From the NCBI GenBank assembly GCA_002049455.2, contig KV918831.1, positions 186,001 to 250,000 on the forward strand: DNA of 64,000 nt, given 5' to 3'. Both the position numbers and the translations under genes were made by a program. Source of the stretch: Porphyra umbilicalis (taxonomy: Eukaryota > Rhodophyta > Bangiophyceae > Bangiales > Bangiaceae). The notes under the pieces are model-generated. The model worked only from the letters and a program-made list of their open reading frames with translations. It had not been told where the DNA came from and made no database searches. The stretch's first letter is position 1, and each line of letters opens with the position of its first letter. Below, one piece after another: positions 2,317-64,000 of the stretch.

Positions 2317-3501
2317 ATGACGTTTGTAGAGGACCGACGTGTGCTGGTCATATCCTGGCTTGTCGGTGGCAGGATGACCTGGGCAGAGGCGGCAGAGCTA
2401 GGGGGAGTGAGTGTGGCCATTGTGGGGCGGTGGTATCGGGTGTTTCGTAGGACAGGTGCTTTTTGGCCTGATGACGCCCTAGGTCAACAACATTACGACA
2501 ACGCCGTTTTCAACCCCAACTTCCTTGTCGCGGTGACGTCGCTCATTGTAGACTCCCCGGAGGCCTTTCTGGGTGAGATCTCAGAGACCTTGCAGCAACT
2601 CTCGGAGCTTCCAGGCTGGGAGGGGCTGCCGCACTCGCCTTCCACCGTGTCGCTCGTGCTGCGCGCCGTCGGGTACACCCACAAGCGCATCATGACGCAC
2701 TTCCGCCAGCGCTGTGCACATCGCCGACGCGAGTTCGCGCGAGAGATACGCCGCGTGCCCATCAAGTGCATCGTCAGCATGGACGAGGTGCACAAGGACG
2801 TTTCAACAAGCTATCGTCGGTACGGCTGGGCGCTGCGCGGTGTGCGAGATGAGGTCATGATTTCAGACCCCCGCAAGAGCCCCCGCTACTCCGTGATGGC
2901 AGCCGTGAGCATCGACGGCGTCGTTGAGACGATGACGTGCGCTGTACCTCCGTCCTACACGGCTCTCGACTACGCGCTCTTCATTCACGCCCTGGCGCCA
3001 TCCATGGGAAAGTGGAATCCGGACCTACCTACCGAGGAGTGGGAGGCGCAAGATTCCCGCTCCGTCCTCCTCATCGACAATGCCGCAATCCACTCCGATG
3101 AGGCCGACGACCTGGCGCGTCAGTACGGCATCCTGGTGCTCCGGCTTCCTCCGTACTCGCCGGATTTTGCCCCAGTGGAGGGCGTCTTCTCCATCCTGAA
3201 GCAGTGGATTGCGGCCGAGTCGGCACAAGACCGGCTGGCTGGTGTCGTGATGCCCAATGGAGAGCGCATGGGCAAGTACGTTGGTTTGATTGTAGATATA
3301 GGCTTGGCATCGTTGACTACGGCTCAGTGTGCTAGCCAGTTTGAGAGAGTTTATTGGGAGTGGCTTCGTCAAGACGCAGCGTATGTAGGCGCGGGCGGTG
3401 GTGAGAACGACGAGGGGGAAGAAGAGGGCGAGCACGAGCAAGGAGAGGGAGAAGGTGGTCATGATGAGGGAGCAGATGAGGATTTTATGGAAGAAAACTG
3501 A
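2317..3501 (+). CDS. Tc1/mariner-IS630-type DDE transposase
   Basis: This is a single open frame of 394 codons from the first in-frame ATG, ending in TGA. The N-terminus carries a helix-turn-helix-like segment (MTWAEAAELGGVSVAIVGRW, about residues 20-39). The catalytic core matches the DDE_3 superfamily: D156 in SMDEVH, D254 in LIDNAAIH, and E288 in PYSPDFAPVE, with 33 residues between the second Asp and the Glu. The motif around the Glu is the family hallmark. The enzyme would cut and paste its own element, normally at TA sites. The last ~35 residues are very acidic (Glu/Asp/Gly-rich), which is unusual for the family. The frame is intact with all three catalytic residues, so it may be recent or active. 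Terminal repeats were not located, so the element boundaries are unknown. Confidence 0.9.
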   Translation: MTFVEDRRVLVISWLVGGRMTWAEAAELGGVSVAIVGRWYRVFRRTGAFWPDDALGQQHYDNAVFNPNFLVAVTSLIVDSPEAFLGEISETLQQLSELPGWEGLPHSPSTVSLVLRAVGYTHKRIMTHFRQRCAHRRREFAREIRRVPIKCIVSMDEVHKDVSTSYRRYGWALRGVRDEVMISDPRKSPRYSVMAAVSIDGVVETMTCAVPPSYTALDYALFIHALAPSMGKWNPDLPTEEWEAQDSRSVLLIDNAAIHSDEADDLARQYGILVLRLPPYSPDFAPVEGVFSILKQWIAAESAQDRLAGVVMPNGERMGKYVGLIVDIGLASLTTAQCASQFERVYWEWLRQDAAYVGAGGGENDEGEEEGEHEQGEGEGGHDEGADEDFMEEN

Positions 3502-7150: not shown

Positions 7151-9984
7151 AGCCCCCACCCCCTGCCGCCGCCGCCGCCTCCACCACCGCCCACGCCGGC
7201 CGCCCGTCCCCCGCTCGCACCGCATTGGCGGTGGTGGCCACTGGGCCGCCGCTAGCATAACCGCCTTCCCCCCCCCCCGCCATCGCTGTCGCGGCGGCGA
7301 TCGTGCCGTTGGCCGCACGGCCGCCGCCCCTCTCCACACAAGCTTGACGACCACCGCCGACGCCACCGCCACCGCCACCGCCGCTGCCGCCACCACGGCC
7401 CCCGCCCGGCGCTCATCCCCCAACTGTCCGGCATCGGCGGCGGTGGCCAGCGTGCCGCCGCCGGCACGGCCGTCCTCCCCCCCCCGCCATCGCGGTTGCG
7501 GCGGCGATCGTGCGGAAGGCCGCACGGCCACCGCCCCCCCCGACACAAGCTCAGCGTCCACCGCCGTCGCGACATCCACCTCCTCCGCGCGCCGCCCGTC
7601 CCCCGCCCGCCCCGTGCTTGCGGCGGCGGCGAACGTCCCGCCGGCGGCACGGTAACCCCCCGCCCCCGCCGCCATCGAGGCGGCGGCGGCCATTGTCCCG
7701 CCCGCACCGCGGCGACCGCGCCACCCACCGCCTGCGCGGCGACCGCCGCTGCCGCCACTGCCGCCGCCACGACCGCCACTGCCGCCGCCGTGGCCGTCAC
7801 CGCCCCCGCCGGCCGCCCGCCCCCCGCCCGCGCCGCGTCGGCGTCGGCAGCCGCCGTGCCGCCGGCAGCATGGCCGCTCCCCCCCCCGCCGCCGTCGCGG
7901 TGGCGGCGGCGAATGTGCGTTCGGCCGCACGGCTGCCCCCCCCCCCCTGCAAGCTCGGCAACCGCTGCCGTCGCCACCGCCACCGCCTCCGCCCGCCAGC
8001 TGTCACCCGCTCGCCCCGTGCTTGCGGCGGCGGCGACCGTCCTGCCGGCGGCACGGCAACCCCCCGCCGCAGCCGCCATCGCGGCGGCGGCGACCATCGT
8101 CCAGCCCGCAGCGCGGCGACCGCGCCACCCACCGCCTGCGCGGAGACCGCCGCTGCCGCCTGGTCCGCCGCCACTGCCGCCGCCGCGGCCACCACCGCCC
8201 CCGCCGGCCGCCCGTCCCCCGTTTGCGCCGCGTCAGCGTCGTCGGCCACCGTGCCGCCGGCAGCATGGCCGCCCCACCCCCCGCCGCCGTCGCGGTGGCG
8301 GCGGCTATTGTGCGTTCGGCCGCACGGCCGCCGCCCCCCCCCCTGAAAGCTCGGCAACCGCCGCCGCCAGCACCACCACCGCCTCCGCCCACCGGCCGTC
8401 CCCCGCCCGCCCCTTTTCGGGCGCGGCGGCGACCGTCCCGCCGGGTGGCGCGGCCGCGCCCCCCCCCGCCGCCATTGCGGCGGCGGTGGCTGTCGCAGGG
8501 TCGGGAGCGCAGCCACCGCGCCGCTCTCCGAGAACGCGGCGAACGCCGCCGTCACCGTCGCCGCCTACGCCGCCACCGCTGCCACGGCCATCACCGCCCC
8601 AGCCGGCCGCCCGTCCCTCGCTCGCCCCACGTCGGCGGCGGTGACCACCGTGCCTCCGCCGGCACGGCCGTCCCCCCCCCCTTCGCCATTGCGGTATTGG
8701 CGGCAATCGTGCCGTCTGCCGCACAGCTGCCGCCCCTCCCGCGACGTCGGCGACCGCCGCCGCCAGCACCATCACCGTCCCCGCCCATTGGCCGTCCCCC
8801 GCCCGCCCCTTGTCGGGCGCGGCGGCGACCGTCCCGCCGGGTGGCGCGACCGCGCCCCCCCCCCGCCGCCATTGCGGCGGCGGTGGCTGTCGCAGGGTCG
8901 GGAGCGCAGCCACCGCGCCGCTCCCCGAGAACGCGGCGACCGCCGCCGCCACCGTCGCCGCCTACGCCGCCACCGCTGCCGCGGCCATCACCGCCACAGC
9001 CGGCCGCCCGTCCTCCGCTCGCCCCACGTCGGCGGCGGTGACCGCCGTGTAGCCGCCGGCACGGCCGTCCTACCCCCCCCCGCCATCGCGGTTGCGGCGG
9101 CGATCGTGCGGAAGGCCGCACGGCCACCGCCCCCCCCGACACAAGCTCAGCGTCCACCGCCGGCGCGACATCCACCTCCTCCGCGCGCCGCCCGTCCCCC
9201 GCCCGCCCCGTGCTTGCGGAGGCGGCGACCGTCCTGCCGGCGGCACGGCAACCCCCCGCCCCCGCCGCCATCGCGGCGGCGGCGGCCATTGTCCAGCCCG
9301 CACCGCGGCGACCGCGCCACCCACCGCCTGCGCGGCGACCGCCGCTGCCGCCACTGCCGCCGCCACCGCCGCCACTGCCGCCGCCGTGGCCGTCACCGCC
9401 CCCGCCGGCCGCCTTCCCCCCGTCCGCGCCGCGTCAGCGTCGTCGGCCACTGTGCCGCCGGCAGCATGGCCGCCCCCCCCCCCGCCGCCGTGGCGGTGGC
9501 GGCGGCGAATGTGCGTTCGGCCGCACGGCCGCCGCCCCCCCCCCTGAAAGCTCGGCAACCGCCGCCGTCGCAACAACCACCGCCTTCGCCCATCGGCCGT
9601 CCCCCGCCCGCCCCTTGTCGGGCGCGGCGGCGACCGTCCCGCCGGGTGGCGCGGCCGCGCCCCCCCCCTGCCGCCATTGCGGCGGCGGTGGCAGTCGCAA
9701 GGTTGGGAGCGCGGCCGCCGCGCCGCTCCCCGATAGCGCGGCGACCACCACCGCCGCCGCCGCCGTCGACGCCGCCACCGCTGCCGCGGCAATCACCGCC
9801 CCGGCCGGCCGCCCGTCCCCGGCTTGCCCCACGTCGGCGGCGGTGACCGCCGTGTCGCCGCTGGCACGGCCATCCCCCCCCCCCCCGGCCATCGCGGTGG
9901 CGGCGGCGATCGTCCGGTCGGCCGCACGGTGGCCACTCCCCTACCCACAAGGTTGGCGACTGCACCCGCCGCAACCGCCGCTGC

Positions 9985-30484: not shown

Positions 30485-32143
30485 TCAAACCGCGCCGCCA
30501 ATGCTATACGTGGAGCTCGACCCAGAGAGCGGCGTGCCGACGGCGTTGAAGCTCGCGCTGCTGGCGCCGCTGCGGCCGCTCTGCTTGAGGAGGAACACGG
30601 CTTGCTCCTTGTCCTCAATGGCGGTCGCCAGCTGCACCTTGATGACCTTGAGCTGCTCGACGACCTTTAGGAACTCGGGCTCCCGCCCGAGCTTCTGCGT
30701 CAGGTCTTGGATCTCCGACACCAGCGCCGCGTTCTTCTGGTTGAGCCGCTCAATAGCCGACGCGCTCGACGCGTCCTCATCGTCTGCGCAGCGCTCCTCA
30801 ATCTCCTCAAGCAAGCCCGCGTTCTCGAGCGTGAGCGTGTGCACCTCCCGTTGCAGGGCCTTGATGGTGTCTTTTTGCTTCTTGGCCTCGGCCGCGGCCT
30901 TGGACCCGGTTACCTCTGACGTGGTCGCCGCCTCCAGCTCGGCTTGGAGCGCGTCCATCTCCGTGTTGGCGTCCTTGAGGTCAATCTGCAGCCGCCCATT
31001 GGCCTTTTCGAGCGTCGTGATGCGCTTGCGGAGCTCTGCCACCAGCGGCGCCGAGTCCTTCTCGGCGTGTGCCCGCACATTGTCCGAGGAGGCGACCGCA
31101 GAAGTGCCCGAGCCGCCGTCGGCCATCGCTCCCGCCGCCGCCGCCGCTGACGCCGCCGCTGCTGCACTCTTCTTCGACTTTTTCTCAATGCCGGCGATGC
31201 TTCCGCTCCTCTCGGATTTCTTGGCTATCTTGGAGAGGATCCGCTTGGACGACGACTTGGTCGGGCCCTCGCCCTTGTCGCTGGCGGCCTCTTTGGCGGC
31301 CTCCTTGGCCTCCTTGGCGGCCGCCTTGGACGACTCCTTGGCCGCCTTGGCCGCCTTCTTCTTGTCCTTCCGCTCCTCCTTTTTAGACGACGGCGATTCT
31401 GCAGACGCAGAGGCACTAAGGGAGGACAAGGACGGCGACGCGGCGCCACTGGCGGAGCCGGTAGGGGATGGCGGGACGGCGGTGCCCTTGCCGGCGGCCG
31501 CACGGGCCGTCTCCTCCAAGTCGTTGAGGTCGTCCAAGTCGCCGTCGTCAAAGATGGAATCGTCATCACCAATGGAGCTGTCCACGTCGTTGAGCCCCCC
31601 AGAGCCCGTGGTCATGGCCGACATCTTGGAGCTCGCCCCGTCGCCGCCGCCCTTGCCCTTCCCCGAGGAGAGGAGGGTGGCCTCCACCTTGGACGCCATG
31701 GTCATCCCGTTGGACAGCTTCACGTCAGCAAACATCGCGCCTGACGTGCCCTGCACGTAGTCGGCGAGGTTGAGGTGCACTTTGGCCAGCGTCTTGCCGT
31801 CCGCGTCGTTTTTCTTGAGCGCAAACTTGGCCTTCTTCTCATCAAACTTGGGGCCGTCCCCGCCGCCGTCGGCGCGGCGAAAGAGGGTCACCTGCAGCGC
31901 CATATTCTCCCGAAAGACCGCCTTGCCGTCCTTGGCCATCACCGCCTTGGTCACCAGCGTCGTGTCCCGCCGCTCATACACGACGCACACCCCATCGTCA
32001 CAGCTGACGCCGTCGACGTACTGGACGAAAAAATCGATGCGGAACTTGGAGGGGGTGCTCCCAATGTGGGCGATGGAGCCCTTGCCGGCGCCGAGCTTGG
32101 AGGAACTCCGCTTGATGACGCCCTTGATGGACGCGGAGGGCAT
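30485..32143 (-). CDS. EEIG1/EHBP1-type NT-C2 domain protein with C-terminal coiled coil
   Basis: 552 residues from the ATG at 32143 (MPSASIKGVIKR) to TGA. The frame continues upstream without a better start. Residues ~30-160 match the N-terminal C2 (NT-C2) domain: KFRIDFFVQYVDGV, RRDTTLVTKAVMAKDGKAVF, NMALQVTLFRR, KVHLNLADYVQ. These give the expected beta-sandwich with the conserved NLA(D/E)Y segment near the end. NT-C2 domains bind membranes or cytoskeletal and endosomal partners. A disordered Ser/Asp and Lys/Ala-rich middle follows (including an EERKDKKKAAKAAKESSKAA-type charged stretch). The last ~160 residues are a strong coiled coil (LRKRITTLEKANGRLQIDLK..., LNQKNAALVSEIQDLTQKLG). The layout (NT-C2, linker, coiled coil) fits plant PMI/EEIG1-type adaptors acting in membrane or organelle positioning. 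It is on the same strand as the TIR-kinase gene. Confidence 0.85.
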   Translation of the reverse strand: MPSASIKGVIKRSSSKLGAGKGSIAHIGSTPSKFRIDFFVQYVDGVSCDDGVCVVYERRDTTLVTKAVMAKDGKAVFRENMALQVTLFRRADGGGDGPKFDEKKAKFALKKNDADGKTLAKVHLNLADYVQGTSGAMFADVKLSNGMTMASKVEATLLSSGKGKGGGDGASSKMSAMTTGSGGLNDVDSSIGDDDSIFDDGDLDDLNDLEETARAAAGKGTAVPPSPTGSASGAASPSLSSLSASASAESPSSKKEERKDKKKAAKAAKESSKAAAKEAKEAAKEAASDKGEGPTKSSSKRILSKIAKKSERSGSIAGIEKKSKKSAAAAASAAAAAGAMADGGSGTSAVASSDNVRAHAEKDSAPLVAELRKRITTLEKANGRLQIDLKDANTEMDALQAELEAATTSEVTGSKAAAEAKKQKDTIKALQREVHTLTLENAGLLEEIEERCADDEDASSASAIERLNQKNAALVSEIQDLTQKLGREPEFLKVVEQLKVIKVQLATAIEDKEQAVFLLKQSGRSGASSASFNAVGTPLSGSSSTYSIGGAV

Positions 32144-33967
32144 GGTGACGGACCGCCCCCACTCGGGCGCGGGGCGCCGCGGCACGCACGGGCGGTACAG
32201 CCGCAACTCACCGTACGACCGTCCTGCAACGGCGGGGGTGTAGACAGCGACGGTGCCCACGTCCGAACGCGCCCCCGCCGATGGCAGCCACCACCACCCC
32301 ACGACGCGGGGGACCGAGCGCGCGGCACCGACCCGCCGCCGGGGAGGGCGAGCGCGGTGCCGGACAGACGCGGCTCGCGTGTCGCCGCGGGACAAAGGGG
32401 CGTACCCCGCCGCCGCCACCGTCGCCGGCCGTCACCACCCCCACCGACGGACCGCCAGGTGCCGTCAGGGAGGCGCGCCGACGCCCCCCGCCCGTGGCGG
32501 CTGCGCCCAGCAGACGGCGTCCCGGCACCCGCCGGGGGCGCGGGGGCAAGAGCACGCGCGGTCGCCCGTGACCCTGCCCGTGACCCTGCCGCCGCACCTG
32601 CGTCTGCCGGCGCGCTCGCCTGCTTGTGCGAGCAAAAAAAAAAAAAGAAAGAAAGAAACAAGCAGCGCACGGGGGAAAGCGCCGCCGCAGGCCGAGGGAC
32701 GTCCCGCCCCCATCGTCGGGTGAAATGCGGGCAGCCGGCCGTCTGGCAAATGCATGCACGGCAGGCGTGCTCTTCAATAGGAGTCGTTGGGGAGTCGTTG
32801 CAGAGTCGTTAAGAGTCGTTGGAGAGTCGTTGGCGCGGCCGCTTGCCGCAGACAACCACAAGGACCCCTCAGACAGCGGCGGCACGGCCCCAGGCCGTGG
32901 TGGGCCGACGCCCGTCCTGCTGGCGGGGACGCACCGTCGGGGTCAGACGACCATCGCCGCGACCCCCGCCCCATCGCCCCGTGCATTCACGTCGCGAGTG
33001 GGTGAGGAGCAGCGAGTTGCCACGCAAGCGCGTTCAACGGACATTCTGAGGCACCCCATCGGGACTTGAAAGCCGCTGATTATTTTGATCATTTTTTCCA
33101 TTGTATGTTAGTATCAAACATGCTATACTTTGTCTAAATACGCACATTGCTCGGGAGACAGCACGACCAAATGAAAAGGTCAGCACAAAGCAGTTCAAAT
33201 GTGCTCTCCGCTACACACAACCAGAAGGCACACCTTTATCGCGGTGTCCAACAGGCTCATGGGCCGTGCATCAGGAAAACAGTACTGCATCGAGCCCTGT
33301 GACAACGCGTGAACAGCCCTCGGACGACTCGTATGTATCACGGTCCACATCCGTACCCGGGTCGGCATTGCATCGGGCTGCGGAGACATGCGCTCGGTAC
33401 GGATTTCGAGCTTGGCGGCCCCCGCGCCCAGCGTTCGTCAGAGGGCTGCGTTGCAGTCCAACGCCTGAGCCACTCCATTGCAGGTGTCGTTCGGGAAAGT
33501 GCATGACGTGCATGAGCAAGAGCCGGCGGCGGACCGACTGGCCCTACAGGCGGCCGGGATTGCATCTTAAAGGGATCCCTGACCTCATCGTCACCTGCAG
33601 AGCTGCTCGAGCACCGATGCCCACAACTCTGATCCGACCGCCGCGGGCAGGTTGCCGCCAGCCAATCGTGTGCTGGGGGATGCTCCGACCCGCCTGCCGG
33701 AGCTTCCGTGGTTGGTACACTCGCAAGGTTCATCAACTGGCTGGCTGCGACATGCCTCGCGGAAACAAGTGGCGCTCTGCTCAGTCCAGAGCCGGGGCGG
33801 AGTCACGCCAGCGCAAAGCCAGGAGGGATAAACAGTCGTGAAGCAACGACGACAGCATCTAGTCACAGACAGGCAAACGACAAAGGCAAGAAGAAAAGCA
33901 ACAGATCGGCTCCCACAGAAAAAAAAACCGCCGGCCAGCACACACGGCTGCGCAATAAATACAAGCC
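32144..33967. other. Intergenic between two minus-strand genes
   Basis: This contains the upstream region of the NT-C2 gene and the 3' region of the TIR-kinase gene. A phased GAGTCGTT array lies at 32781-32831 and an AT-rich patch at about 33070-33140. Open frames are unsupported. Confidence 0.45.
32781..32831. promoter_or_regulatory. Five helically phased GAGTCGTT (AACGACTC) motifs
   Basis: GAGTCGTT occurs at 32781, 32792, 32803, 32813 and 32824, so starts are 11, 11, 10 and 11 bp apart, about one DNA turn. Spacer bases vary while the octamer is invariant, which argues for selection on the octamer rather than simple slippage. The cluster lies 638-688 bp upstream of the NT-C2 gene start. It may be a multi-site transcription-factor platform, with all sites on one face of the helix. 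Confidence 0.5.
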
Positions 33968-36900
33968 CTAGCGCTCCTGATGACACAAGGTGCCCAGGGT
34001 CTGCACCAGCTCGGAGAACCGCGGCCGCTTGTCGGGCACGTCCGCAAAGCAGATGCCGATAAGCTGGCGGAGCTGTTGCAACGCTGGTGGACACCCCGGC
34101 TCCGCAGGCGGGAGCTCCAGCTTCTCGTTCCTGCTGCCGACCTTGAAGACCACCTGCATTGGATGATCATCGCGCCACGGCTTCTCGCACATGACCAGCT
34201 CCCACAGGATGACGCCAAAGGAAAAGACGTCGCTCTGCTCATCAAACGGATCTTGGCGCAGTAGCTCCGGCGCCATCCATTCCGGCGTCCCGCCCGGCCC
34301 CGTATTGACGTAGGTGGCCACGCGTAGGCGGGAGAGGCCAAAGTCCGTAATCTTGACCTCGCGCACGTTCGTGCCCAGCAGGATGTTGGGCGACTTGAGA
34401 TCCCGATGGATGACGACAGGGTACTGCGCGTGCAGGTACTCCATGCCCTTCGCCACCCCGAAGGCAATCCACAGCGACTTGAGCAGTGGGAAGGGACCGA
34501 GATTGTTTCGCCGCCGCCTGTGGATGGCGCGGTACAGCGAGCCGCCCGGCATGAACTCAAGGATGATCGCCAGGGAGGGGGCCTGGATGCTGGCCCCCAA
34601 GAAGGACACGACGTTGGGGTGACTCAGCTTGCTCATCAGCTTCATCTCCACCATAAACTCGGCCATGACCGCCTGCGGGTCGTCGTCCTCCACCTTCTGC
34701 AGGGTCTTGACCGCCACCATCTGATTCTCCCACTTGCACTTGTACACCTCCCCAAAGCCGCCAGCACCGATGCGGGGCCCAAACACGATCGACGAGAAGC
34801 CCATCGCCCATTCCTCGCGCCAAACCTTGTCAAAGAACATATTCTCGACAGAGTCCTCTGCCGACTGCACTGCCGGTGCGGCTGCCGCTGCCGCGTCCGC
34901 CGCCGCCGCCACCGTGGCCTCGTCCTCATCCTCACGGAACATGGTGCGGTTGTTGCCATTCTCCTTTTTCATCAGCAGCTTGTCGGCAAGCAGCAGCTTG
35001 CCTCCACCCGCCGCCCCGGCCGCGCCCGGCCCGGCGCTGGAGCTGTCGGTACCCTCAGCAAAGGCGTCTGGCTCCGCCGCATCGGCAGGCCCGGCCGACA
35101 GGCCCGACAGCGCCGACAAGATCTCGTCAAGTAGCATCGTCGCCGACTCAAAGGCCGCCTCGCGACAATCCACACCCTCCGTGGCGACCAGCCGACGCGC
35201 GAGCGGCGTCAAGTCGCAGCTCCGCCAGAAGAGGGGGATAATGAAGTTACCCTGCGACTCGAAATCCCGGCAATAGGCAAGAGAAAAGGCCTCTGTACAC
35301 TCCACCGAATGGAAGTAGTCGTCCGACAGCAGCGACAGGAAGATGCGCGACGTATTGAGCGCGCCCATAGCAGCCTCGTTGACAACCCCCCGAGCACGCA
35401 CGGAAACCTCACGCGGCTCCGCGTCGTACACCCGGATGTTCTCGTTCTTGGACCGCAGGTACGCCATCATCTGCTGCGCCGACGGTCGGTCCGCCTCGGC
35501 GTACGAGAAGAAGACGTCGTGGCGGATCTCCATCGAAGCCGCCGCCGCCGCCGCCGCCGCAGCGGCGGTCTTTGACTTGACCTTGGCAAACGTCTCAATG
35601 TCCTTACTGATATCCGTCTCTGGCAGCAGGATCTTGACCGTCTTGAGCGGCAGGCCCATCTGCATCCAGCCGACCGACACATCCACCGCCGCCTTCACAA
35701 AGTGCTTTCGGAGGCTCGGGCTCAGCAGCGCACCCGACAGCGGCAGCAAGACCGAGCTGATCTGCACATCACCACCTAGCACAGTCGTCAAACACTTCAT
35801 GATGTCGAGCACAATGTTGTCGTCGCGCGTCAGCTCCTCACCCGGGTCTTCGTAGACCAGCAGGCGCTTGAACTCAAAACCACGGGGGCGGGGCTTGGGC
35901 AGCGGCCGGCTCAACCAGCAGTGGTAGTGCCGGCGGTAACTGGGCTGCGGCTTGGTCTCCTTCTCCAGCTGCGCGAGCGACAGGCCCGAGCGGTTCAGGG
36001 CGGCCAGCGCAGAGTCACGGTTGCCCTTGTATACGCCGCGCTCGCGCAAGTACACTACCATCAGGTCCGTCTCGTCCTCGGGGGCGAGGCCCTCCACCGA
36101 CCCCTGCATCAGCTCAATCCGGCCCGTAAAGTCCTTACGGTGGACGTTGATGAAGTCGAGCCGCTTCAGGCCGAGCTTCTCTGGCGGCGAGTACTTGCCA
36201 GAGGCAGTGCCCTCGCCGGCGGCAGCAGCTGCAGCACCCCCAGCAACAGCTACAGCGCTGCTGCCAGCCGCCTCAACGACGGCCTTCGGGACGCTACCCG
36301 CTGGCGGCACCTCGGGCGTCTTGGATGAGCCGATCGCACCCGCCGAGCCACGGCGCGCAGAGCGGCCAGACATGGCACGCTGGAGGAGCCCCTTCGGCGC
36401 GGTGCCCGTGCTCGACACGTTGCCCGCCGCTCCGTTGCCAACGCTGCTGTTGGTCGATGTCGGGCCGGCCTTGCTGCTCCCGGCAGAGGACAAAGGCACT
36501 GTGCTGCTGCTGTCCGGCGAAGACATGGGCGGCGATGACGACGGCGAGCTCGACGCCGGCGACACACTCGAGCCAGTCGCGTCCGACGCAGCAGCAGCAG
36601 CTGCTGCTTTTCTATTCGACCGCTCCGACCGAATCTTCACGCGCTTGTCTGAACCAAGAGAAAAACAGAGAGGAAGAGGGCGGTAGATAGATGAAATCAC
36701 CGGGCAGGGAGGCAAGCAAGAATCAACATATCGATACAAGCGACCCAACAAGTCAGTATATGCACCTCCATGTGGCACGAACGGCCAATGCCGCCGCACC
36801 AAGCCAGCGACCGCTCACAGCGGGCTAACTCAACCAGGCGGGACGCCTCGCGGGACACCTTCGGGTTAGCCGCGACCGTTGCGCCTTTCCCACCCTGCCT

Positions 36901-37101
36901 CCCACCTTGTAGATCTCCGAGGCACTCAAGAATTGCAGGCAAGGAGAGGGACTGCAAACAACCAGCAGCATGCAAGAACCATCCGCATCAACTGCAGCAC
37001 TTGCCCGCTTCACCCACCCACTCCCCGCCCCAGGATCGAAATCGGTGCACCACCAACGTACCTCGCACCTTGTCCACCACCGAGGACTGATTGGCACCCA
37101 T
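33968..37101 (-). CDS. Myristoylation signal - macro-like - TIR - TKL protein kinase fusion
   Basis: Two exons are predicted: 37101-37062 and 36648-33968, with a 413-nt GTACGT...TTCAG intron in phase 1, giving 906 residues ending in TAG. Exon 1 encodes MGANQSSVVDKVR: Gly2 and Ser6 fit the N-myristoylation consensus. Residues 11-27 are strongly basic (KVRDKRVKIRSERSNRK), so myristate plus a polybasic patch should place it at a membrane. A low-complexity stretch leads to a domain at ~180-355 (RIELMQGSVEGL..., VQISSVLLPLSGA..., LPLKTVKILLPE) that follows macro-domain order. A TIR domain follows at ~390-528 (HDVFFSYAEADR, SRIFLSLLSDDYFHSVECTEAF), with a Glu where NADase TIRs have theirs. A TKL kinase occupies ~630-900: GAGGFGEVYKC, VAVK with K661, HRDLKSPN at 761-768, DFG at 782-784, and GTPEWMAPE. 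All catalytic kinase residues are present. Confidence 0.85.
36649..37061 (-). other. Intron of the TIR-kinase gene
   Basis: The donor is GAG-GTACGT and the acceptor is a pyrimidine-rich tract ending TTGGTTCAG. Splicing joins CGA G to AC AAG, giving Arg-Asp-Lys. The intron is phase 1. It separates the 40-nt first exon, which carries the myristoylation signal, from the rest. Confidence 0.7.
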
Positions 37102-44702: not shown

Positions 44703-46424
44703 ATGTTGGTGGCTTTGTGGTCGCCCCGTTTGCGGCGCGGTGCGAAGCGCTGCCAGCAATCCGCCGCCGTGGCCGTTGCCCTTGCCATTGTCATTTTTTG
44801 TTTCGTTGCGGCACTCGGCTCGGTTGGCGCACTCGTGGACGACCACCGCGCCTCGCCCGCACCGACCGTCCGCCAGGTGGTGATCCCCCCGCGGATGCCC
44901 TCGGCCGATGACGTGCCGGCCAAGTACCGGCTGTTGAACGTTAGCGCTGCAACCGCCGCGTGCCCCGCAAGGTTCTCCATGAACTACCACGAAACGTACA
45001 TTGGGACGCCCCGCGCGTGGAGCGGCATGATCGACTCCTTCCCGTCGTCGCTAGAAGGATTACAAGACGGGCTGGACATGTGTGTGTCGTCTCAATACTA
45101 CCTTACCCCCGCCGTCGCCAATGACAGCGAGCCAACAGACCACACGAGCGATGTGTACGCCACGTTTCGGGCAGCCCGTGCCGCGTCGGCGCCCGCGCAG
45201 GCGGCGCAGGCCGCCCTCTTCGCCGCCGACTTGACGCCCACTGTTGTCACTGGTTGGCTCGACGAGGAGCTCATCTACCTTCATCCCGGCTGCCGCGAGT
45301 GGGCGCCGGCGAACACGACCTTTTTCTGGTTCTTCATTGCTGGCACGGCGCCCGTGCCGCTGGCGGATGGCAACGTTGCGCTCGGCACGGTGCCGGCGGG
45401 CGCCAAGGCGGCGATCTTTGCGTCTGGGCGCGACGTGTTGTGTACGTACGCGGCGGGTGGCGCAGCGACGCCAACGCCAACGCCAACGCCGAGGCCGACG
45501 CCGACGCCCTCACCGACGCCGCCCGAGCGGTCCCCGCCGCCATCGCCGCCACCGTCGTCGAGCGGCACCTCACCGTCGGCGGGCGCGTCGGCCGACGGCG
45601 GCCACGACGACTCGTCGCAGCGCCCGCCGCGTCGCTCCCGGCGGGGCTTGGCCATTGGCCTCGGCGTCGGCCTGACGGCGGCGGCGGTCGTGGCGGGGGT
45701 GGCGGTCGCCGCACGCCGCCGCCGCACGGTGGGGGCGTCGCGTGACGGGGGGGGCGGCGGCGGCGCAGGGAGCTGGGACGGTGGCGGCAGCACCGGGGGG
45801 AGCACCTTTGACGGCGACGGTGGCGACGCGGGCGCCCCTGACGACAGAGGCGCCGGCGGCGGCGGCGGGGCGGGGGGAGCCCCGACCGGCGCTGCCGCCG
45901 ACGGCGACGGTGGCGACGCGGGCGCCCCTGACGACAGAGGCGCCGGCGGCGGCGGCGGGGCGGGGGGAGCCCCGACCGGCGCTGCCGCCGACGGCGACCG
46001 CGTCGACGCGCCCGCCGTGGCGGCGACCGACGCCCCTGCAGGCGCCGCCGCCGCGTGCGCCGCCCCCGCGCCCCCGCCACCGCTGCCGCACGTGCTGGCG
46101 CACCCCGCGGGCGCCGACGGCGGGTGGGGCGTCGTCGGCGCCGCCGGCGGCGCCACCGCCTCGGCCGGCGCCGGCAGCGGCGGCGGCGGCGCGACGCCGA
46201 CCATGTTTGGCAGCCTCTCCGACGCGCTGACGGTGGACGGACTGTTTGCGTCGGCCTTCATGCCGACGCACCCCGGTGGCAGCGGCGGCAGCGGCGGTGG
46301 CGGCACGGGCGGTGCGGGCGCGGCGGCCGCCGCGCCGCCGAGCCCCGCGTCGACCCTGTCAGACCACATGGACGTCGACGGCTTGGTGCGGGAGGCGCTG
46401 GAGCTGCCCCCGGCGCCCCTGTGA
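44703..46424 (+). CDS. Type I-like membrane protein with Cys-containing ectodomain, Thr/Pro stalk and Gly/Ala-rich tail
   Basis: 573 residues from the ATG at 44703 (MLVALWSPRLRR), chosen because it places a hydrophobic signal or anchor (VAVALAIVIFCFVAALG) at about 22-42. The ectodomain (~45-255) has several Cys and N-glycosylation sequons (NVSA, NTTF), and reads as well-conserved folded protein: YHETYIGTPRAWSGMIDSFP and YLHPGCREWAPANTTFFWFF. A (TP)n/Pro-Ser stalk follows (~258-300), then a transmembrane helix at ~315-338 (GLAIGLGVGLTAAAVVAGVA) and a stop-transfer ARRRR. The cytoplasmic tail includes a 30-residue unit duplicated in tandem (90-bp period from 45810) and two acidic motifs, SDALTVDGLF and SDHMDVDGLV, near its end. 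I do not recognise the ectodomain. A surface receptor or adhesion role is inferred. Confidence 0.7.
   Translation: MLVALWSPRLRRGAKRCQQSAAVAVALAIVIFCFVAALGSVGALVDDHRASPAPTVRQVVIPPRMPSADDVPAKYRLLNVSAATAACPARFSMNYHETYIGTPRAWSGMIDSFPSSLEGLQDGLDMCVSSQYYLTPAVANDSEPTDHTSDVYATFRAARAASAPAQAAQAALFAADLTPTVVTGWLDEELIYLHPGCREWAPANTTFFWFFIAGTAPVPLADGNVALGTVPAGAKAAIFASGRDVLCTYAAGGAATPTPTPTPRPTPTPSPTPPERSPPPSPPPSSSGTSPSAGASADGGHDDSSQRPPRRSRRGLAIGLGVGLTAAAVVAGVAVAARRRRTVGASRDGGGGGGAGSWDGGGSTGGSTFDGDGGDAGAPDDRGAGGGGGAGGAPTGAAADGDGGDAGAPDDRGAGGGGGAGGAPTGAAADGDRVDAPAVAATDAPAGAAAACAAPAPPPPLPHVLAHPAGADGGWGVVGAAGGATASAGAGSGGGGATPTMFGSLSDALTVDGLFASAFMPTHPGGSGGSGGGGTGGAGAAAAAPPSPASTLSDHMDVDGLVREALELPPAPL
45810..45999 (+). 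repeat. 90-bp coding tandem duplication
   Basis: The 90-bp unit starting at 45810 (GACGGCGACGGTGGCGACGC...) is repeated from 45900 without visible change, followed by a short partial third copy. It encodes 30 residues of the cytoplasmic tail of the membrane protein. Confidence 0.85.
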
Positions 46425-56931: not shown

Positions 56932-58599
56932 ATGCCTTTTTTGGCTGCTGACCTGCGTGCGATTGCCAGGGTGGTGAGATGCTCGCTGAAGCAACTAGAC
57001 GAGGTCAGCGGCGAGCGCTACACCTATGTGTGTTGCGCCAGACGCGCAGACGGGCAGCATGCCCTCGTGTACGCCTCTGGTTTTCAGTCGAGCAGCGTGG
57101 TGAGAAGCACTGCTGCACATGGTATGAAGCTTCTGTTTGACGGTGTGGTGCACGCTGGCCCCTCGGCGCCACAGGGCTCCATCGGCTCGGCTGGCAGCCA
57201 TGTGATGGCCCTAGGGGGGACGGCAGGGGGGGGAGGCTCGCAGACACCAGGTGGTTCCTCCCTCGATGGAGACGCCCTCGCAATGAACGTCTCCGTGGCG
57301 AGCGCTGGTGGTGGTCTCCCTTCCGCTGCTTCTCTCCGTGCCGGTTCATCTCCTGCTCCCGACCCCCTCATGCCCCCCAATGCGCCTCCCACCCTTCCCC
57401 GCGCGGCTTCATTACCTCCCCGTGCGGCCGACCTGCGCTCGGGATCGCCTCTGCCGTCTGTCGCGCCCCCTCCCCTTGAGCATGCAACGTCACAAGATCT
57501 CCCTCCTCTTCCCGATGGTGTCTCTCTGCCGGCCATGGTCGGGTCCGGCTTGACCGCAGGCGATGACCCTGTCGGCGACGGGCCACTGTCGAGAATCCAA
57601 CGAGACGCGCGAGTCGAAGCGGTCGCGGCTCATCGTGCGCGCCTCGCGTCGCTCACCTCGTCACAAACGGGCGAGGTGCACGTCCCGGAAGGGCTGGTCG
57701 CCGACGTCGGGCGGCAGCTTTGCGGTGGCGAGGAGAGGCGGGTGCTGCTGGCAGACATCCTCGGGTTCTATGAGCTCATGGCGTACTACTGCAAGAAGCA
57801 ACTCAACATCACGCAGGTCGTGTACGAGCAGCTCGCCCCCGTCGCCACGCTCGGCGTCACGCTGCGGAGGGACGTGCTGGCTGCTCGCTCGCGCAAGACT
57901 AACGTCATCCTCACACCGCTTAAGATGGCCAACCGGTCCCACCTCCGCATCGCCCCAGGCCTGGCCGTCATCGTGTTCATGGTTCACCTCAAAGACAAGT
58001 TCTACGACTTCCTACTCAAGCAGTACAGTGAAGGAAGGCGTGCTCCTTCTAAAAGGAAGCCCGGCAAGGTGCCAATGGGCCCTGTCCTTGCCGCTGAAAA
58101 TGCGGAAGACGGAGGAGGGGGCGACGGCGGAGGGGGTGACGGTGGAGGGGGTGACGGCGGAGGGGGTGACGGCGGAGGGGGGGACGACGGAGGGGGTGAC
58201 GACGGAGGGGGTGACGGCGGAGGGGGTGCCGGCGGAGGGGGTGACGGCGGAGGAGGTGACGGAGGAGGGGGTGACGGTGGAGGGGGTGACGGAGGAGGGG
58301 GTGACGGCGGAGGGGGTGACGTCGGTGGGAGTGACGCCGCTGCGGGCGACGGTGATGGGGGCACCGATGGTGCTAGACCTGCCATTGGCCCTGCTGGCGC
58401 GCGTCCCGCGAGACGTGAGGGCGCGGATGGCGGGGAAGGCACTGGTAGTGCACGCGCCGGTCGCGATGCGGATGGCAACCTACTCGGTGACACACTGACG
58501 ACGGCTGAGTCGAGCAGAAATCGACCGGGAGCCGTTCTGCAACCGGCGCCCCGGCAAGATGGCGGTGGCTTCCGGGGAGGAGATGAAGGTGGGGGGTAG
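56932..58599 (+). CDS. Unknown protein with conserved N-terminal region and DGGGG repeats
   Basis: 555 codons from the ATG at 56932 (MPFLAADLRAIARVVRC) to a TAG at 58597-58599. The first ~60 residues read as folded protein (RYTYVCCARRADGQHALVYASG). A Pro/Ser/Gly linker follows, then a second folded region at ~225-365 (GEERRVLLADILGFYELMAY, RSHLRIAPGLAVIVFMVHLK). At 58110-58335 a 15-bp minisatellite encodes about 15 DGGGG-type units. The same frame stays open after the TAG for another 2.4 kb, so this stop is probably a nonsense change, or part of an intron (GGGG-GTAGGT could serve as a donor). I do not recognise the family. It converges with the PIF1 helicase gene downstream. Confidence 0.5.
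   Translation: MPFLAADLRAIARVVRCSLKQLDEVSGERYTYVCCARRADGQHALVYASGFQSSSVVRSTAAHGMKLLFDGVVHAGPSAPQGSIGSAGSHVMALGGTAGGGGSQTPGGSSLDGDALAMNVSVASAGGGLPSAASLRAGSSPAPDPLMPPNAPPTLPRAASLPPRAADLRSGSPLPSVAPPPLEHATSQDLPPLPDGVSLPAMVGSGLTAGDDPVGDGPLSRIQRDARVEAVAAHRARLASLTSSQTGEVHVPEGLVADVGRQLCGGEERRVLLADILGFYELMAYYCKKQLNITQVVYEQLAPVATLGVTLRRDVLAARSRKTNVILTPLKMANRSHLRIAPGLAVIVFMVHLKDKFYDFLLKQYSEGRRAPSKRKPGKVPMGPVLAAENAEDGGGGDGGGGDGGGGDGGGGDGGGGDDGGGDDGGGDGGGGAGGGGDGGGGDGGGGDGGGGDGGGGDGGGGDVGGSDAAAGDGDGGTDGARPAIGPAGARPARREGADGGEGTGSARAGRDADGNLLGDTLTTAESSRNRPGAVLQPAPRQDGGGFRGGDEGGG
58110..58335 (+). repeat. 15-bp coding minisatellite (GACGGCGGAGGGGGT)
   Basis: About 15 copies of a 15-bp unit with minor substitutions, in frame, encoding Asp-Gly-Gly-Gly-Gly repeats. 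Confidence 0.85.
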
Positions 58600-60290
58600 G
58601 TGGGCGGGGTGCCGGTGCGCCACCCCCCCCCAAGGCGGCGGCGGCCTCGGTCGTGGCGGCGGCGGCGGGGGCGTCGGTCGGTCCAGAACCGGACTGCCAC
58701 CGGCGCCCCCGCAAGATGGTGGTGGCCTCGGTGGAGGAGATGGCGGTGGGGGAGTCGGTGGGCGGGGCGCCGGTGCGCCACCCCCCCCCAAGGCGGCGGC
58801 GGCCTCGGTCGTGGCGGCGGCGGCGGGGGCGTCGGTCGGTCCAGAACCGGACTGCCACCGGCGCCCCCGCAAGATGGTGATGGCCGTGGGGGAGGAGATG
58901 GCGGTGGGGGAGTAGATGGGCTGGGCGCCGGTGCGCCACCCCCCCCCAAGGCGGCGGCTGTCTTGGTCGGGGCAATAGCGGTGGGGGAGAAGGTGGGCGG
59001 GGCGCCGGTGCGCCACCCCCCCCCAAGGCGGCGGCGGCCTCGGTCGTGGCGGCGGCGGTGGGGGCGTCGGTCGGCCCAGAGCCGGTCTACCACCCCTTCT
59101 CTTATGCGGCGGCGGCCTTGGCCGTGGCGGTGGTATTGGGGGCGTGGGTGGGGGGGTCGTCGGTGCGCCACCCCCCCCCAAGGCGGCGGCGGCCTCGGTC
59201 GTGGCGGCGGCGGTGGGGGCGTCGGTGGATCCAGAGCCGGTCTGCCACCTCCGCCCCAAAGCGGAGGCAGCCTTGGCCGTGGCGGTGGAAGTGGGGGTGG
59301 GGGTGGGGAGGGCGCCGGTCTGCCACCCCCGCTCGTAAGCGGCGGCGGCCTTGGCCGTGGCGGTGGGAGTGGGGGCGTTGGTGGGGGGGGCATCGGTGCG
59401 CCACCCCACCCCCAAGGCGGCGGCGGCCTCGGTCGTGGCGGCGGCGGTGGGGGCGTCGGTGCGTCGAGAGCCGGTCTGCCACCTCCGCCCCAAAGCGGAG
59501 GCAGCCTTGGCCGTGGCGGTGGAAGTGGGGGTGGGGGTGGGGAGGGCGCCGGTTTGCCACCCCCGCTCGTAAGCGGCGGCGGCCTTGGCCGTGGCGGTGG
59601 GAGTGAGGGCGTTGGTGGGGGGGGCATTGGTGCGCCACCCCACCCCCAAGGCGGCGGCGGCCTCGGTCGTGGCGGCGGCGGTTGGGGTGTCGGTGGGTCC
59701 AGAGCCGTTCTGCCACCTCCGCCCCAAAGCGGAGGCAGCCTTGGCCGTGGCGGTGGAAGTGGGGGTCGGGGTGGGGGGGGCGCCGGTCTGCCACCCCGGC
59801 TCGTAAGCGGCGGCGGCCTTGGCCGTGGCGGTGGGAGTGGGGGCGTGGGTGGGGGGAGCGCCGGTGTGCCACCCCCACGCCCACGCGGCGGCGGCCTCGT
59901 TCGGGGCAATGGCGGTGGGGGCGTGGGTGGGAGGGGCGCGGGTGCGCCACCCGCGCCCCAAGGCGGCGACGGTCTCGGTCGTGGCGGCGGCGGTGGGGGC
60001 GTCGGTGGGCAGAGCGCCGGCGTGCCACCGCCGCCCCATGGCGGTAACGGCCTAGGTCGTGGCGGAGGCGGTGGGGGCGTAGGTGGGGGGGGCGCCGGTT
60101 TGCCACCCCCGCCCCAAAACGGCGACGGCCTCGGTCGGTGCGGTGGCGGTGGGGGCGCAGGTGGGCGGAGTGCCGGTCTGCCGTCCCCCCCTCACGGTGG
60201 CGGTGGCTTTGGCCGTTGCGGTGTCGGTGGCGGTGGAGGTGGGCGGGGCGTCGGTCTGCCACTCTCATTTCAAGGTGGCGGAGGCCTCGG
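58590..60290 (+). repeat. 78-bp repeat array with 234-bp higher-order period
   Basis: Units containing GGCGGCGGCCT(C/T)GG(T/C)CGTGGCGG alternate in sets of three. Near-identical 234-bp blocks begin around 59220, 59455 and 59690. It is coding in one frame (Gly/Pro-rich) and, as often in such arrays, also open on the other strand. Confidence 0.8.
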
Positions 60291-61023
60291 TCGTGAGGGT
60301 GGTGCACGGCCGGGCTCCCCGCGGTTTTCATTGGGTCATCCGCGGTGGAGGCCGCCGTCGACGAGCCCCTCGTCTTCCTCGTTTCGGAGCGGCGCGGGAT
60401 CGGCCTCCCCTGCGGCGGGACAAACAGGTGCGCGTGGAGCACAAGCTCGTCGGGGTGAGGGAGATTCTGATGTGGCTGCTGCCCTGGGTCGCTCCCGCCC
60501 CCGCCGCATTCGTCGAATGGAAGGGGATGGCAGCTTCTCTGACGCGGCTGCCTCTCCCCCCCCCGCTGGCGGCCCGTACGTGAACCAGTGCTTCCTTGAA
60601 CTCGTGGCGCAAGCTGAGGACGTTTCCGAGTCTTCGTTTGGCGGCCGCGCGCACAACTGGCCTTCCCCCGGGGACGTTGTGTACGAGTGTCCACCCTGCC
60701 AAGAACTGTACCATGACGGCCGCGTGGCTGCTCGTGGGGTTGCTGACGTCGACTGCACCTTGGTGCCTTCGGCTGTGCTTCCTTCTCGCTTTGTTGCGGT
60801 GCAACTGCGCTCGCTGGGCGCCGACCCGGACACCGTGCCGTGCTGGGCGTGGGGTGACGGCGTGTTGACCGAGACCATGCTCAACGTTGTTTCACTCCAC
60901 ACGTTGGTTTGGCAGACGCGGATGACGGGGTACGCCGTGTCCTTCTTAGAGGGCTCTTTGGTGCGGCTGTTCCTGGTGCGCCGTTTAGGATTGTTTCTTA
61001 CTCGACTTCCGCTCTGCGCTTGA
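58600..61023 (+). CDS. In-frame continuation: Gly-rich 26-residue repeats and conserved C-terminal region
   Basis: This frame is the same as that of the preceding 56932-58599 frame. Residues ~1-550 are ~26-residue repeats of the type GLPPPPQSGGSLGRGGGSGG, arranged in higher-order units of three (78 residues, 234 bp). The C-terminal ~130 residues change to normal protein (VNQCFLELVAQAEDVSESSF, AVQLRSLGADPDTVPCWAWG, MLNVVSLHTLVWQTRMTGYA). This half has no ATG of its own near the start, supporting one gene with the frame before it. After about 60957 the reading becomes intron-like. A further exon, in another frame, probably starts near 61091 (TEAKMLGMAAVHKVAAPS...) and ends with a stop at 61375. 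No family was recognised. Confidence 0.45.
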   Translation: MGGVPVRHPPPRRRRPRSWRRRRGRRSVQNRTATGAPARWWWPRWRRWRWGSRWAGRRCATPPQGGGGLGRGGGGGGVGRSRTGLPPAPPQDGDGRGGGDGGGGVDGLGAGAPPPPKAAAVLVGAIAVGEKVGGAPVRHPPPRRRRPRSWRRRWGRRSAQSRSTTPSLMRRRPWPWRWYWGRGWGGRRCATPPQGGGGLGRGGGGGGVGGSRAGLPPPPQSGGSLGRGGGSGGGGGEGAGLPPPLVSGGGLGRGGGSGGVGGGGIGAPPHPQGGGGLGRGGGGGGVGASRAGLPPPPQSGGSLGRGGGSGGGGGEGAGLPPPLVSGGGLGRGGGSEGVGGGGIGAPPHPQGGGGLGRGGGGWGVGGSRAVLPPPPQSGGSLGRGGGSGGRGGGGAGLPPRLVSGGGLGRGGGSGGVGGGSAGVPPPRPRGGGLVRGNGGGGVGGRGAGAPPAPQGGDGLGRGGGGGGVGGQSAGVPPPPHGGNGLGRGGGGGGVGGGGAGLPPPPQNGDGLGRCGGGGGAGGRSAGLPSPPHGGGGFGRCGVGGGGGGRGVGLPLSFQGGGGLGREGGARPGSPRFSLGHPRWRPPSTSPSSSSFRSGAGSASPAAGQTGARGAQARRGEGDSDVAAALGRSRPRRIRRMEGDGSFSDAAASPPPAGGPYVNQCFLELVAQAEDVSESSFGGRAHNWPSPGDVVYECPPCQELYHDGRVAARGVADVDCTLVPSAVLPSRFVAVQLRSLGADPDTVPCWAWGDGVLTETMLNVVSLHTLVWQTRMTGYAVSFLEGSLVRLFLVRRLGLFLTRLPLCA

Positions 61024-61556: not shown

Positions 61557-63158
61557 CTATACCACCAATGCAGTACCAGTACCCACGGACGACTCAATCG
61601 GTGGCCGCCCGTCTTCCGCCGGGTCGATGTTGCCCTCCTCGAGCTGCTTCGCATAGTAGGCCACGGCGGAGCGGCTAGCATGTATCAGGTCGCGACGCAG
61701 TCCCTGCACGCGCAGACAAGAAAAGGAGCGCGCCCGAGAGAGCGCGGTGTAGACGAGCCCAGCCGTCGACCACGAGTCGAGCTGAAAGTCGATCTCCACC
61801 GCATCCAGCGTCAGGCCCTGCGCGCGGTGCACCGTAATGGCCCACCCCAGTAGCAGCGGGATTTGCTCGCAGAATGCCAGCTCCGTCCCGGTCGAGTCGT
61901 ACGCCGAGAAGCGTGAGCGGCCGACGATGATCAGCTCCCCGTCAAAGTCACACTCCACTTCCGTGACCGTGTCCACCCCCTGGTCCCCCGCCACGATGAA
62001 GCGCTTGACGACGCCGCGCGCGCCCGGCGCGACGTTTCCCAGCTTCCGCGTCAAAATCACAAGCGACTCCAGCTTCAAGACGACCGAAAGGTCGACGCAC
62101 GACCGCAGCGAGGCCACCGCCTCGTCAGCCAGCGACAGGTCCGCCGTCAAGATCACGTCCTCTGCCGAGAACTCCACCAAGGGCGACGCAATGCGTGCGA
62201 GGCGCTCCTTGTTCATGGCCTGCACGGCGACCTTCTTAATGCGAAGGCGGGTCACCGGGCCCAAGACGTCGTTGGACGATGTGCTGTTGAGCCGGTTGAC
62301 GTCCTGTGCGCCCGCGCGCCCCCAGCGTACCCTGTCGAGCATTCTTTGGAAGTCTGCATCTTGCGCCTGCCTGTGGTTGCCGGTGAGGCATAAGACCTTC
62401 CCCGCAGCGCCGCCAAACGTGGACCGCCACGCGGCGCAGTCGAACACCATTCGGTCCAGGGAGGTGTCCGACACGCCGACGGGCACAATCTGGAGTGGAT
62501 CCCCCGCAGCTGTACACAACAAGAGGAATGAGAAGGCCTTAAAAAGAGAAGCATAAAACGGAAAACCAGGCTCGCACCAGTCAGTTGCCTGGCACATTGC
62601 ACACTGAAAAAAACCATCAACGGTGGGCACCATGAGTTGAACAAAGAACAGGCAGCCATACAGAAGGGCAAGAGGGACGGGAGGCCACATACCGACCAGT
62701 TGACAACCCCCAAATGGTAGGTGCTGCATGTGCGGTGGGGCCACCCGCCGCATCACGTACGCCAGCCGAGAAAAAAGAGACGACGATACCGTACACACCT
62801 CGTCAACAAAAACAACCCGTAGCTGGTTCAGTCGCCGGCAAACGTCAGGACGTCGCAGCGTCTCGCGCAGCCACGCTTCGCGTGACAACGGCCGGGTGTC
62901 CATGGAAAACAAAGAGTGGAGCGTCTGGCCACCGATTATGAACGCCACCGACCCCGCCAATGCCGTGATGGCGATGGCCTCCCGACCGTAGGACGCAACG
63001 GCGCTGGCCACCATGCGCCGCAGCACCTCACTCTTGCCACATCCCGCCCGCCCAAACAGAGCAACATTGGAGCGACTCTCAAACAGCTCCACCGCTCGCT
63101 GCTGCGACGCATCCAAGGTGATTGCGGCACCGGCCTGCACTCCACCGCGTGCGTCCAT
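61557..63158 (-). CDS. PIF1/RecD-like superfamily 1B DNA helicase
   Basis: Two exons, 63158-62693 and 62509-61557, joined across a 183-nt GTATGT...TACAG intron, give 472 residues ending in TAG. Removing the intron restores helicase motif III as QLVAAGDPLQIVPV, which fixes both splice sites. Other SF1B motifs are present: Walker A GRAGCGKS (36-43), Walker B FVDE (117-120), the LTGNHRQ segment, GWAITVHRAQGLTLD, and VYTALSRARS near the C-terminus (motif VI). The enzyme should be a 5'-3' DNA helicase, acting in replication, telomere or mitochondrial DNA maintenance, though expanded PIF1-like copies in protists are often mobile-element cargo. The start at 63158 is the first ATG before the conserved ITLDASQQRAV region. 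The frame is open further upstream, but that part reads as non-coding. Confidence 0.85.
   Translation of the reverse strand: MDARGGVQAGAAITLDASQQRAVELFESRSNVALFGRAGCGKSEVLRRMVASAVASYGREAIAITALAGSVAFIIGGQTLHSLFSMDTRPLSREAWLRETLRRPDVCRRLNQLRVVFVDEVCTVSSSLFSRLAYVMRRVAPPHMQHLPFGGCQLVGMWPPVPLALLYGCLFFVQLMVPTVDGFFQCAMCQATDWCEPGFPFYASLFKAFSFLLLCTAAGDPLQIVPVGVSDTSLDRMVFDCAAWRSTFGGAAGKVLCLTGNHRQAQDADFQRMLDRVRWGRAGAQDVNRLNSTSSNDVLGPVTRLRIKKVAVQAMNKERLARIASPLVEFSAEDVILTADLSLADEAVASLRSCVDLSVVLKLESLVILTRKLGNVAPGARGVVKRFIVAGDQGVDTVTEVECDFDGELIIVGRSRFSAYDSTGTELAFCEQIPLLLGWAITVHRAQGLTLDAVEIDFQLDSWSTAGLVYTALSRARSFSCLRVQGLRRDLIHASRSAVAYYAKQLEEGNIDPAEDGRPPIESSVGTGTALVV
62510..62692 (-). other. Intron of the PIF1-like helicase gene
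   Basis: Phase 1, GTATGT donor, TTGTACAG-type acceptor, 183 nt. Its length is a multiple of three and it has no in-frame stop, so retention would leave the protein in frame with 61 extra residues, including a hydrophobic stretch. Confidence 0.8.
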
Positions 63159-64000
63159 TCCAGTCCGCAAAACGAGGGGAACAAAGAGGTGGCAGATAGG
63201 AGCAGGGGCCAAGGACGTGGCCAAGAAACGAGAGCAGGACGGGCCGTCAGTCGCGCGCGCCGGCTCATCGGCCACATGCATAGGCAACAGTCATCAAATG
63301 GCTGCTTGAAGTCCGCGCCGTGCCATGGGCAAGCCCGAGTCAGCCATCAAGCCCCAGTGTGACATGCGGTCCCAAGCCGATGCCCCCCAGGATCGTTGAA
63401 CGGCATCTTACCTTCGCATGGCGACCGTCAGGAGCCAAACGTCCTGTTCCCCCACCCTGTTGCGAGTCGTTCTAGGCCACTGACAGCTCGCCTGATCGTC
63501 AGCCATGCATACGTCAACGTTGCTCACAAAAGCGGCAGCAACGTCGCGGCTCGGCGCCGTGAAGTGTTGGCCGCGATGGTGATACGTGGCATGTCGTCTA
63601 ATAATAGAAGACCCGGAGATCGGCAATTCGTTCGGATTTATCATAGAATTGGTCATCATTGGGCAGAATGAGTCTCACATGCATACTTGACAGGCCGACG
63701 TTGCCATGCTTCTCCATGTCCCTTTGGAGCTCGGGGCAGACGAGATATAGCGTCAGCGCCTCGTACTCGCTCCCGAGAAGCGGCAACTGATGACACAAAC
63801 GAAGAGTGAGAGTATTCGACAGAGGACCTCTATGCTTTCTTAACATGCGCCAGCAGATGGATGCGCGGCGCCATGGACCACCTTTCCGTGCAGGCTCGCA
63901 GGTACGTACACATTGGACGACCTGGAGACTGGCATACTCATTTCTAGAGCTATTGTCTGGTGGTACGTGCGTACTTCTGAATGTGTTGAACCGTTGACCA
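63159..64000. other. Upstream of PIF1 helicase, no recognisable gene
   Basis: No coding sequence is recognised. The promoter of the helicase gene should lie here. Short frames on both strands are unsupported, and the window ends inside this stretch. Confidence 0.4.

Follow-up and report, generated by a model that had tools for sequence, protein, structure and literature searches.

Two genes of the red alga Porphyra umbilicalis join a TIR domain and a CTR1/Raf-like kinase in one chain

The gene described here lies on the minus strand of a 64,000-nucleotide stretch of the Porphyra umbilicalis genome (assembly GCA_002049455.2, contig KV918831.1, positions 186,001 to 250,000 of the forward strand), which we call the window and in whose coordinates all positions below are given unless another locus is named. 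On this strand positions 33968-36814 form one open frame, 948 codons long from stop to stop, in which Pfam places a TIR domain (TIR_2, ORF residues 434-551, E = 9.1e-11, 42.7 bits against a cut-off of 28) ahead of a protein kinase domain (PK_Tyr_Ser-Thr, ORF residues 678-940, E = 2.4e-57). Searched alone, the TIR domain matches TIR_2 at E = 2.6e-12 (47.7 bits, cut-off 28). The linkers between the domains are of low complexity. The fusion of TIR and kinase in one chain, which the initial annotation had read from the DNA, is real. Because the ORF has no Met ahead of the basic stretch encoded in exon 2, we predict that a short upstream exon supplies the natural start; the frame of this exon runs into a stop codon when it is read on through the predicted intron, and the predicted splice joins it to exon 2 in phase to give a protein of 906 residues. 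The features of the spliced model are listed here, with residues numbered in the 906-residue protein, a numbering that agrees with the initial annotation.

37062..37101, minus strand: predicted exon 1, 40 nt, with the ATG at 37101 and a GT donor, read directly as MGANQSSVVDKVR
36649..37061, minus strand: predicted intron of 413 nt, GTACGT...TTCAG, with GT-AG ends and the phase kept
33968..36648, minus strand: exon 2, open frame encoding the rest of the 906-residue protein of the spliced model, with the stop codon
35576..36175, minus strand: conserved middle domain, residues 172-371, called 'macro-like' in the initial annotation; 82% identity to the paralog
35162..35515, minus strand: TIR domain, residues 392-509 (Pfam TIR_2)
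33995..34783, minus strand: CTR1/Raf-like protein kinase domain, residues 636-898 (PK_Tyr_Ser-Thr)

The predicted protein begins MGANQSS, which fits MGxxxS, the pattern of N-myristoylation starts, and basic residues follow across the exon junction. The membrane-anchor signal proposed earlier thus stands as a motif (MGxxxS plus a basic stretch) that belongs in part to a predicted exon, and from this motif we infer that the TIR-kinase protein would carry an N-terminal lipid anchor.

Ten ORFs of the window were scanned for neighboring functions. An ORF for an NT-C2 protein of the EEIG1/EHBP1 type adjoins the gene on the same strand (30485-32431, minus; PF10358, E = 1.3e-10). Two further ORFs, one for a DDE_3 endonuclease-like protein (2113-3498, plus; 4.7e-17) and one for a PIF1-like helicase (61557-63290, minus; 1.4e-13), possibly belong to mobile elements. 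The window also holds GC-rich tandem-repeat arrays at 58588-60302, 7165-7596 and 45810-46010–for example, a 78-bp unit in 22 copies–and its GC content reaches 85% at 47-49 kb.

The kinase domain has a complete set of catalytic motifs (GAGGFG, VAVK, HRDLKSPN, DFG and APE), as the initial annotation had stated in calling it TKL-type. Its nearest relative among PDB kinases is CTR1 (E = 2.4e-64), with a match that spans ORF residues 656-942 and so covers the kinase only; CTR1 itself is not known to have a TIR domain. In the PDB ranking an EGFR-labelled chain comes third and is followed mostly by MLK and Raf kinases (best 60 of 2,672 matches). Kinship with IRAK/Pelle was not seen: CTR1 is the nearest relative, and the names given for the best 60 of the 2,672 include neither an IRAK nor a receptor-like kinase. 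By its motifs and nearest relatives the domain is a TKL kinase of the CTR1/Raf-like type, and plant CTR1/Raf-like MAPKKKs are its closest known counterparts by kinase-domain sequence. Matches to the protein in phages are confined to the kinase among the 20 of 31 records listed.

Searching the genome (83.8 Mb in 665 contigs) with the protein as query gave at least 43 matches, from 48 scored out of 1,508 first-look candidates. They comprise the gene itself, three pieces on another contig, C187, and 39 kinase-only matches. The C187 pieces correspond to the middle, TIR and kinase parts, which lie in the same order in one frame of 1,059 codons and are respectively 82%, 75% and 78% identical to ours, so that of the three parts the middle domain has diverged least. 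Most differences between the copies fall at third codon positions, where the differing fractions in the three parts are 0.48, 0.47 and 0.45, compared with 0.12-0.22 at positions 1 and 2. The kinase of the paralog keeps the catalytic motifs, with VAAK and HRDCK. Paralogy with a kept domain order and constraint-like divergence suggests that the architecture is more than chance. On the 5' side of the paralog a start of the form MGTVLS with basic residues, MGTVLSTVRTRSSTRRRTR, lies upstream in another frame, with a run of G between; the change of frame would follow from an error in the length of a homopolymer or from a short intron. An MGxxxS start is therefore found at both genes. The two window proteins that we tried as queries, NT-C2 and PIF1, have no match in 9.9 kb of the paralog locus.

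The genome was also searched with both TIR profiles, reading exon by exon. TIR_2 gave two matches, which are these two kinase genes (a TIR split by an intron could be missed in such a reading), and PF01582 gave one, the paralog, below the cut-off, and so added none. NB-ARC domains form a large repertoire, with 41 places, none of them on the contig of the window or on C187. Two NB-ARC proteins that we inspected, of more than 1,200 residues each, combine NB-ARC with WD40, and no TIR domain is among the families shown for them. Because TIR_2 was found only in the two kinases and NB-ARC elsewhere, TIR_2 in this genome appears to be tied to the kinase and not to the NLR-like proteins.

Some unrelated loci were noted in the same genome. 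Ten of the 11 phycobilisome matches, which mark the host as a red alga, are on one contig of 185,000 bp, and one phycobilisome protein encoded there is ApcD-like and matches allophycocyanin chains that we take to be those of Porphyridium and Griffithsia. There are ten light-harvesting matches, two of which have PDB 7y5e, presumably from Porphyridium, in first or second place (in one case behind 9vfj), followed by cryptophyte-type chains. An SSU rRNA gene copy on contig C62 contains a MITE-like insert of about 630 bp with 37-nt inverted repeats at its ends (positions 570-1201 of locus L028). A second rDNA-like locus (L029, C23:427520-430539) shows the SSU 3' motif, in which one position is mismatched, and matches 5.8S at 59.9 bits (cut-off 42), with no SSU match at the gathering threshold; it is either a degenerate rDNA copy or another organism's.

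TIR domains of the NADase type have a Glu in helix alpha-C, and we judged this position from alignments. In the printed HMMER alignments to Cat1, RUN1, RPS4 and MyD88 the Glu column is Ala in our protein, and this Ala faces Glu in Cat1 and RPS4, Gln in MyD88, and Ala in the RUN1 chain, which we take to be the E100A mutant. When the domain was aligned by MAFFT with seven bacterial TIRs, the Glu common to all seven, presumably the catalytic one, faced Phe. The two kinds of alignment set the Glu column one residue apart, and in neither does it hold the Glu of our protein, which both copies keep and which sits one or two positions N-terminal to the canonical column. The Glu that the initial annotation had assigned to NADase-type TIRs is thus off-register. 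In three of the seven bacterial TIRs the position of our protein's Glu is likewise occupied by a Glu, in addition to the one that all seven share, and a locally shifted catalytic site, offset by about one helical step, is possible. Judged on these columns, the domain looks non-enzymatic and probably cannot cut NAD.

Other relatives of the TIR domain are distant. PADLOC gives a weak match to ThsB (0.0014) and FxsC TIR-like proteins a weak one below the cut-off (1.9e-5). In two PDB profile searches the best TIR matches are weak (0.016 and 0.021), with the MyD88 TIR among the profile matches at 0.03-0.15; a designed helical-repeat protein heads both searches (0.00014 and 0.013), apparently as an artefact. 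Scans with two short peptide patterns each confirmed no TIR relatives in viral or prokaryote contigs, and plasmids gave two weak places.

The middle domain reaches the cut-off of no family in PADLOC, Pfam, PDB sequences, NCBIfam or PHROGs. Pfam gives it no macro match at E-values up to 10, and the sole thing that the Pfam scan of the ORF sees in it is a sub-threshold ArfA (0.045, 13.7 bits against 25.5); a true Pfam macrodomain is present elsewhere in the genome. Profile searches with the models named in the initial annotation recovered TIR_2 and the kinase, a weak PF01582 and no macro. We also compared the domain by hhalign with nine macrodomains, eight from named bacterial or archaeal records and one from this genome, using a query profile of two close sequences, which has low power. 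The probability was 0.42%, compared with 0.48% for the kinase and 0.09% for the TIR domain as negative controls. The real profile scores above the shuffle mean, but in three settings 11, 10 and 5 of 100 column shuffles did as well in local alignment, and 98 of 100 did so in global alignment. Reversing the profile lowers the score in local mode and raises it in global mode. The local match, 'SVLLPLSG', is the segment expected in advance. Inspected by eye, the domain has a succession of beta strands and alpha helices reminiscent of a macrodomain, but the macro binding motifs (the GDI Asp, NAAN, GGGVD and GxxG) are absent. No relatives of the middle domain were confirmed in viral contigs, and no YmdB relatives were found there. 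The macro identity proposed earlier is thus without statistical support from the library scans, hhalign or the shuffles, and stands unproven, not disproved.

Proteins of this general class are already known. In the red alga Pyropia yezoensis, Table 1 of PMC6928737 lists two TIR genes, py01330.t1 and py08661.t1, both labelled 'TIR+Pkinase'. They resemble the Porphyra pair in coming from a red alga, in being two, in having a kinase in both, and in occurring alongside NB-ARC+WD40 genes, a likeness of domain list and count alone. The Pyropia search used PF01582 at 1e-5 (PMC6928737), a profile that matches the two genes here weakly (0.039, 0.00013 and 0.0134 across scans) and at that threshold neither of them; the Pyropia TIR genes may therefore differ from ours, which weakens the link. 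What PMC6928737 gives for them is a domain list, and the parts of it that treat these genes contain no analysis of a middle domain, a lipid signal or a catalytic site. The text of that paper speaks of 23 R-domain transcripts and its Table 1 has 24 rows by our count; its statement of 'no fusion events' for the candidates also seems at odds with its own 'TIR+Pkinase' label.

Choanoflagellates have 'Kinase TIRs' and 'Kinase TLRs' (PMC6040629). Their Kinase TIRs, a class that lacks a transmembrane segment, likewise hold TIR and kinase in one chain, for which a bypass of adaptor recruitment was proposed, but they are written in the order Pkinase, TIR, and the study describes them as restricted, within its data set, to choanoflagellates (PMC6040629). 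Compared by description, our protein comes from a red alga and differs in that the TIR precedes the kinase, that an orphan domain is present and that the start is of the myristoylation type. A TIR-NBARC-WD40 protein is mentioned for Chondrus (PMC9806590), and a term search of the main text of a eukaryote-wide TIR atlas (PMC13142454) returned neither 'kinase' nor 'red alga'. Among the matches listed in the open-licence literature we found no account of a middle domain or a lipid signal in a TIR-kinase protein. The architecture, of which the initial annotation knew no example, is therefore in print as a class (PMC6928737, PMC6040629), and what appears to be new here is the lipid signal (as a motif), the orphan domain and the degenerate TIR site.

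The explanation that we favor, at somewhat less than even confidence, is that the gene encodes a red-algal membrane-tethered protein whose TIR is a scaffold that clusters and activates its own Raf-like kinase, probably in defense. A myristoyl group at the N terminus, together with the basic patch, would keep the protein on a membrane. The TIR would be an assembly surface and not an NADase, making contacts with itself, with the paralog or with another partner, and TIR-TIR contacts would gather kinase domains for trans-phosphorylation. The activated kinase would then start a MAPK-type cascade, probably in defense, and the conserved middle domain would be a regulatory or sensing part. Such a protein would work like the MyD88-to-IRAK step in one chain, outside that pathway and with a Raf-like kinase. 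In animals MyD88 and IRAK are separate proteins joined via death domains. The likeness lies in a non-enzymatic-looking TIR, with Gln in the Glu column of MyD88, and a TKL-group kinase; the differences are that the kinase here is CTR1/Raf-like and that no death domain is among the Pfam hits.

The strongest alternative, possible though in our view rather unlikely, is a Raf-like MAPKKK with a house-keeping, developmental or abiotic stress role, in which the TIR would be a dimerisation module with no immune role. The TIR domains of plants and animals are mostly immune, which argues against such a role, whereas CTR1, the closest kinase of solved structure, acts in the ethylene pathway. The Pyropia expression data point both ways: in red rot py01330 rises 1.51-fold in slight and 1.59-fold in severe infection and passes the paper's 1.5-fold mark at both stages, but py08661 is not induced (1.0 and 1.27, respectively; PMC6928737). 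The red-rot induction of one Pyropia gene counts for the membrane-tethered scaffold in defense, and its small size, with one of two genes passing, counts against it.

A good deal less probable is the model of the initial annotation, in which the TIR cleaves NAD+, a macro middle domain binds an ADP-ribose product of the cleavage, and the kinase passes the signal on at the membrane. The TIR_2 fold is common to NADase TIRs, there are the weak ThsB and FxsC matches, and a conserved Glu adjoins the canonical place, but the canonical column itself is Ala or Phe. For the middle domain, the macrodomain-like order seen by eye, the short hhalign match in the expected register and a score above the reversal (local mode) and the shuffle mean have to be set against five libraries with no macro match, shuffles that equal the real score, a kinase control that scores slightly higher, and missing binding motifs. 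NAD+/ADP-ribose signaling is thus supported neither by the Glu column nor by the macro statistics. That the fusion is an artefact of the gene model, with TIR and kinase belonging to two different genes, is very improbable, because although low-complexity linkers part the domains and the transcript is a predicted one, the frame is uninterrupted and is found twice, in the same order on two contigs, and Pyropia has 'TIR+Pkinase' transcripts (PMC6928737).

A wider proposition is more doubtful than the membrane-tethered scaffold on which it builds: that red algae, independently of animals, have evolved a one-chain counterpart of MyD88-IRAK, in which a lipid-anchored dead TIR switches its own Raf-like kinase, together with a new regulatory domain family and NLR-like NB-ARC-WD40 proteins that lack a TIR. 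If the favored reading is true, animals and choanoflagellates are not the only organisms in which a TIR is coupled directly to a TKL-group kinase: the arrangement also occurs in a group of algae with food crops among its members, about whose immune signaling little is known. The gene would then offer a single-gene system for asking whether a TIR can be a pure assembly switch for a kinase, and the TIR-kinase genes would point to an uncharacterised conserved domain.
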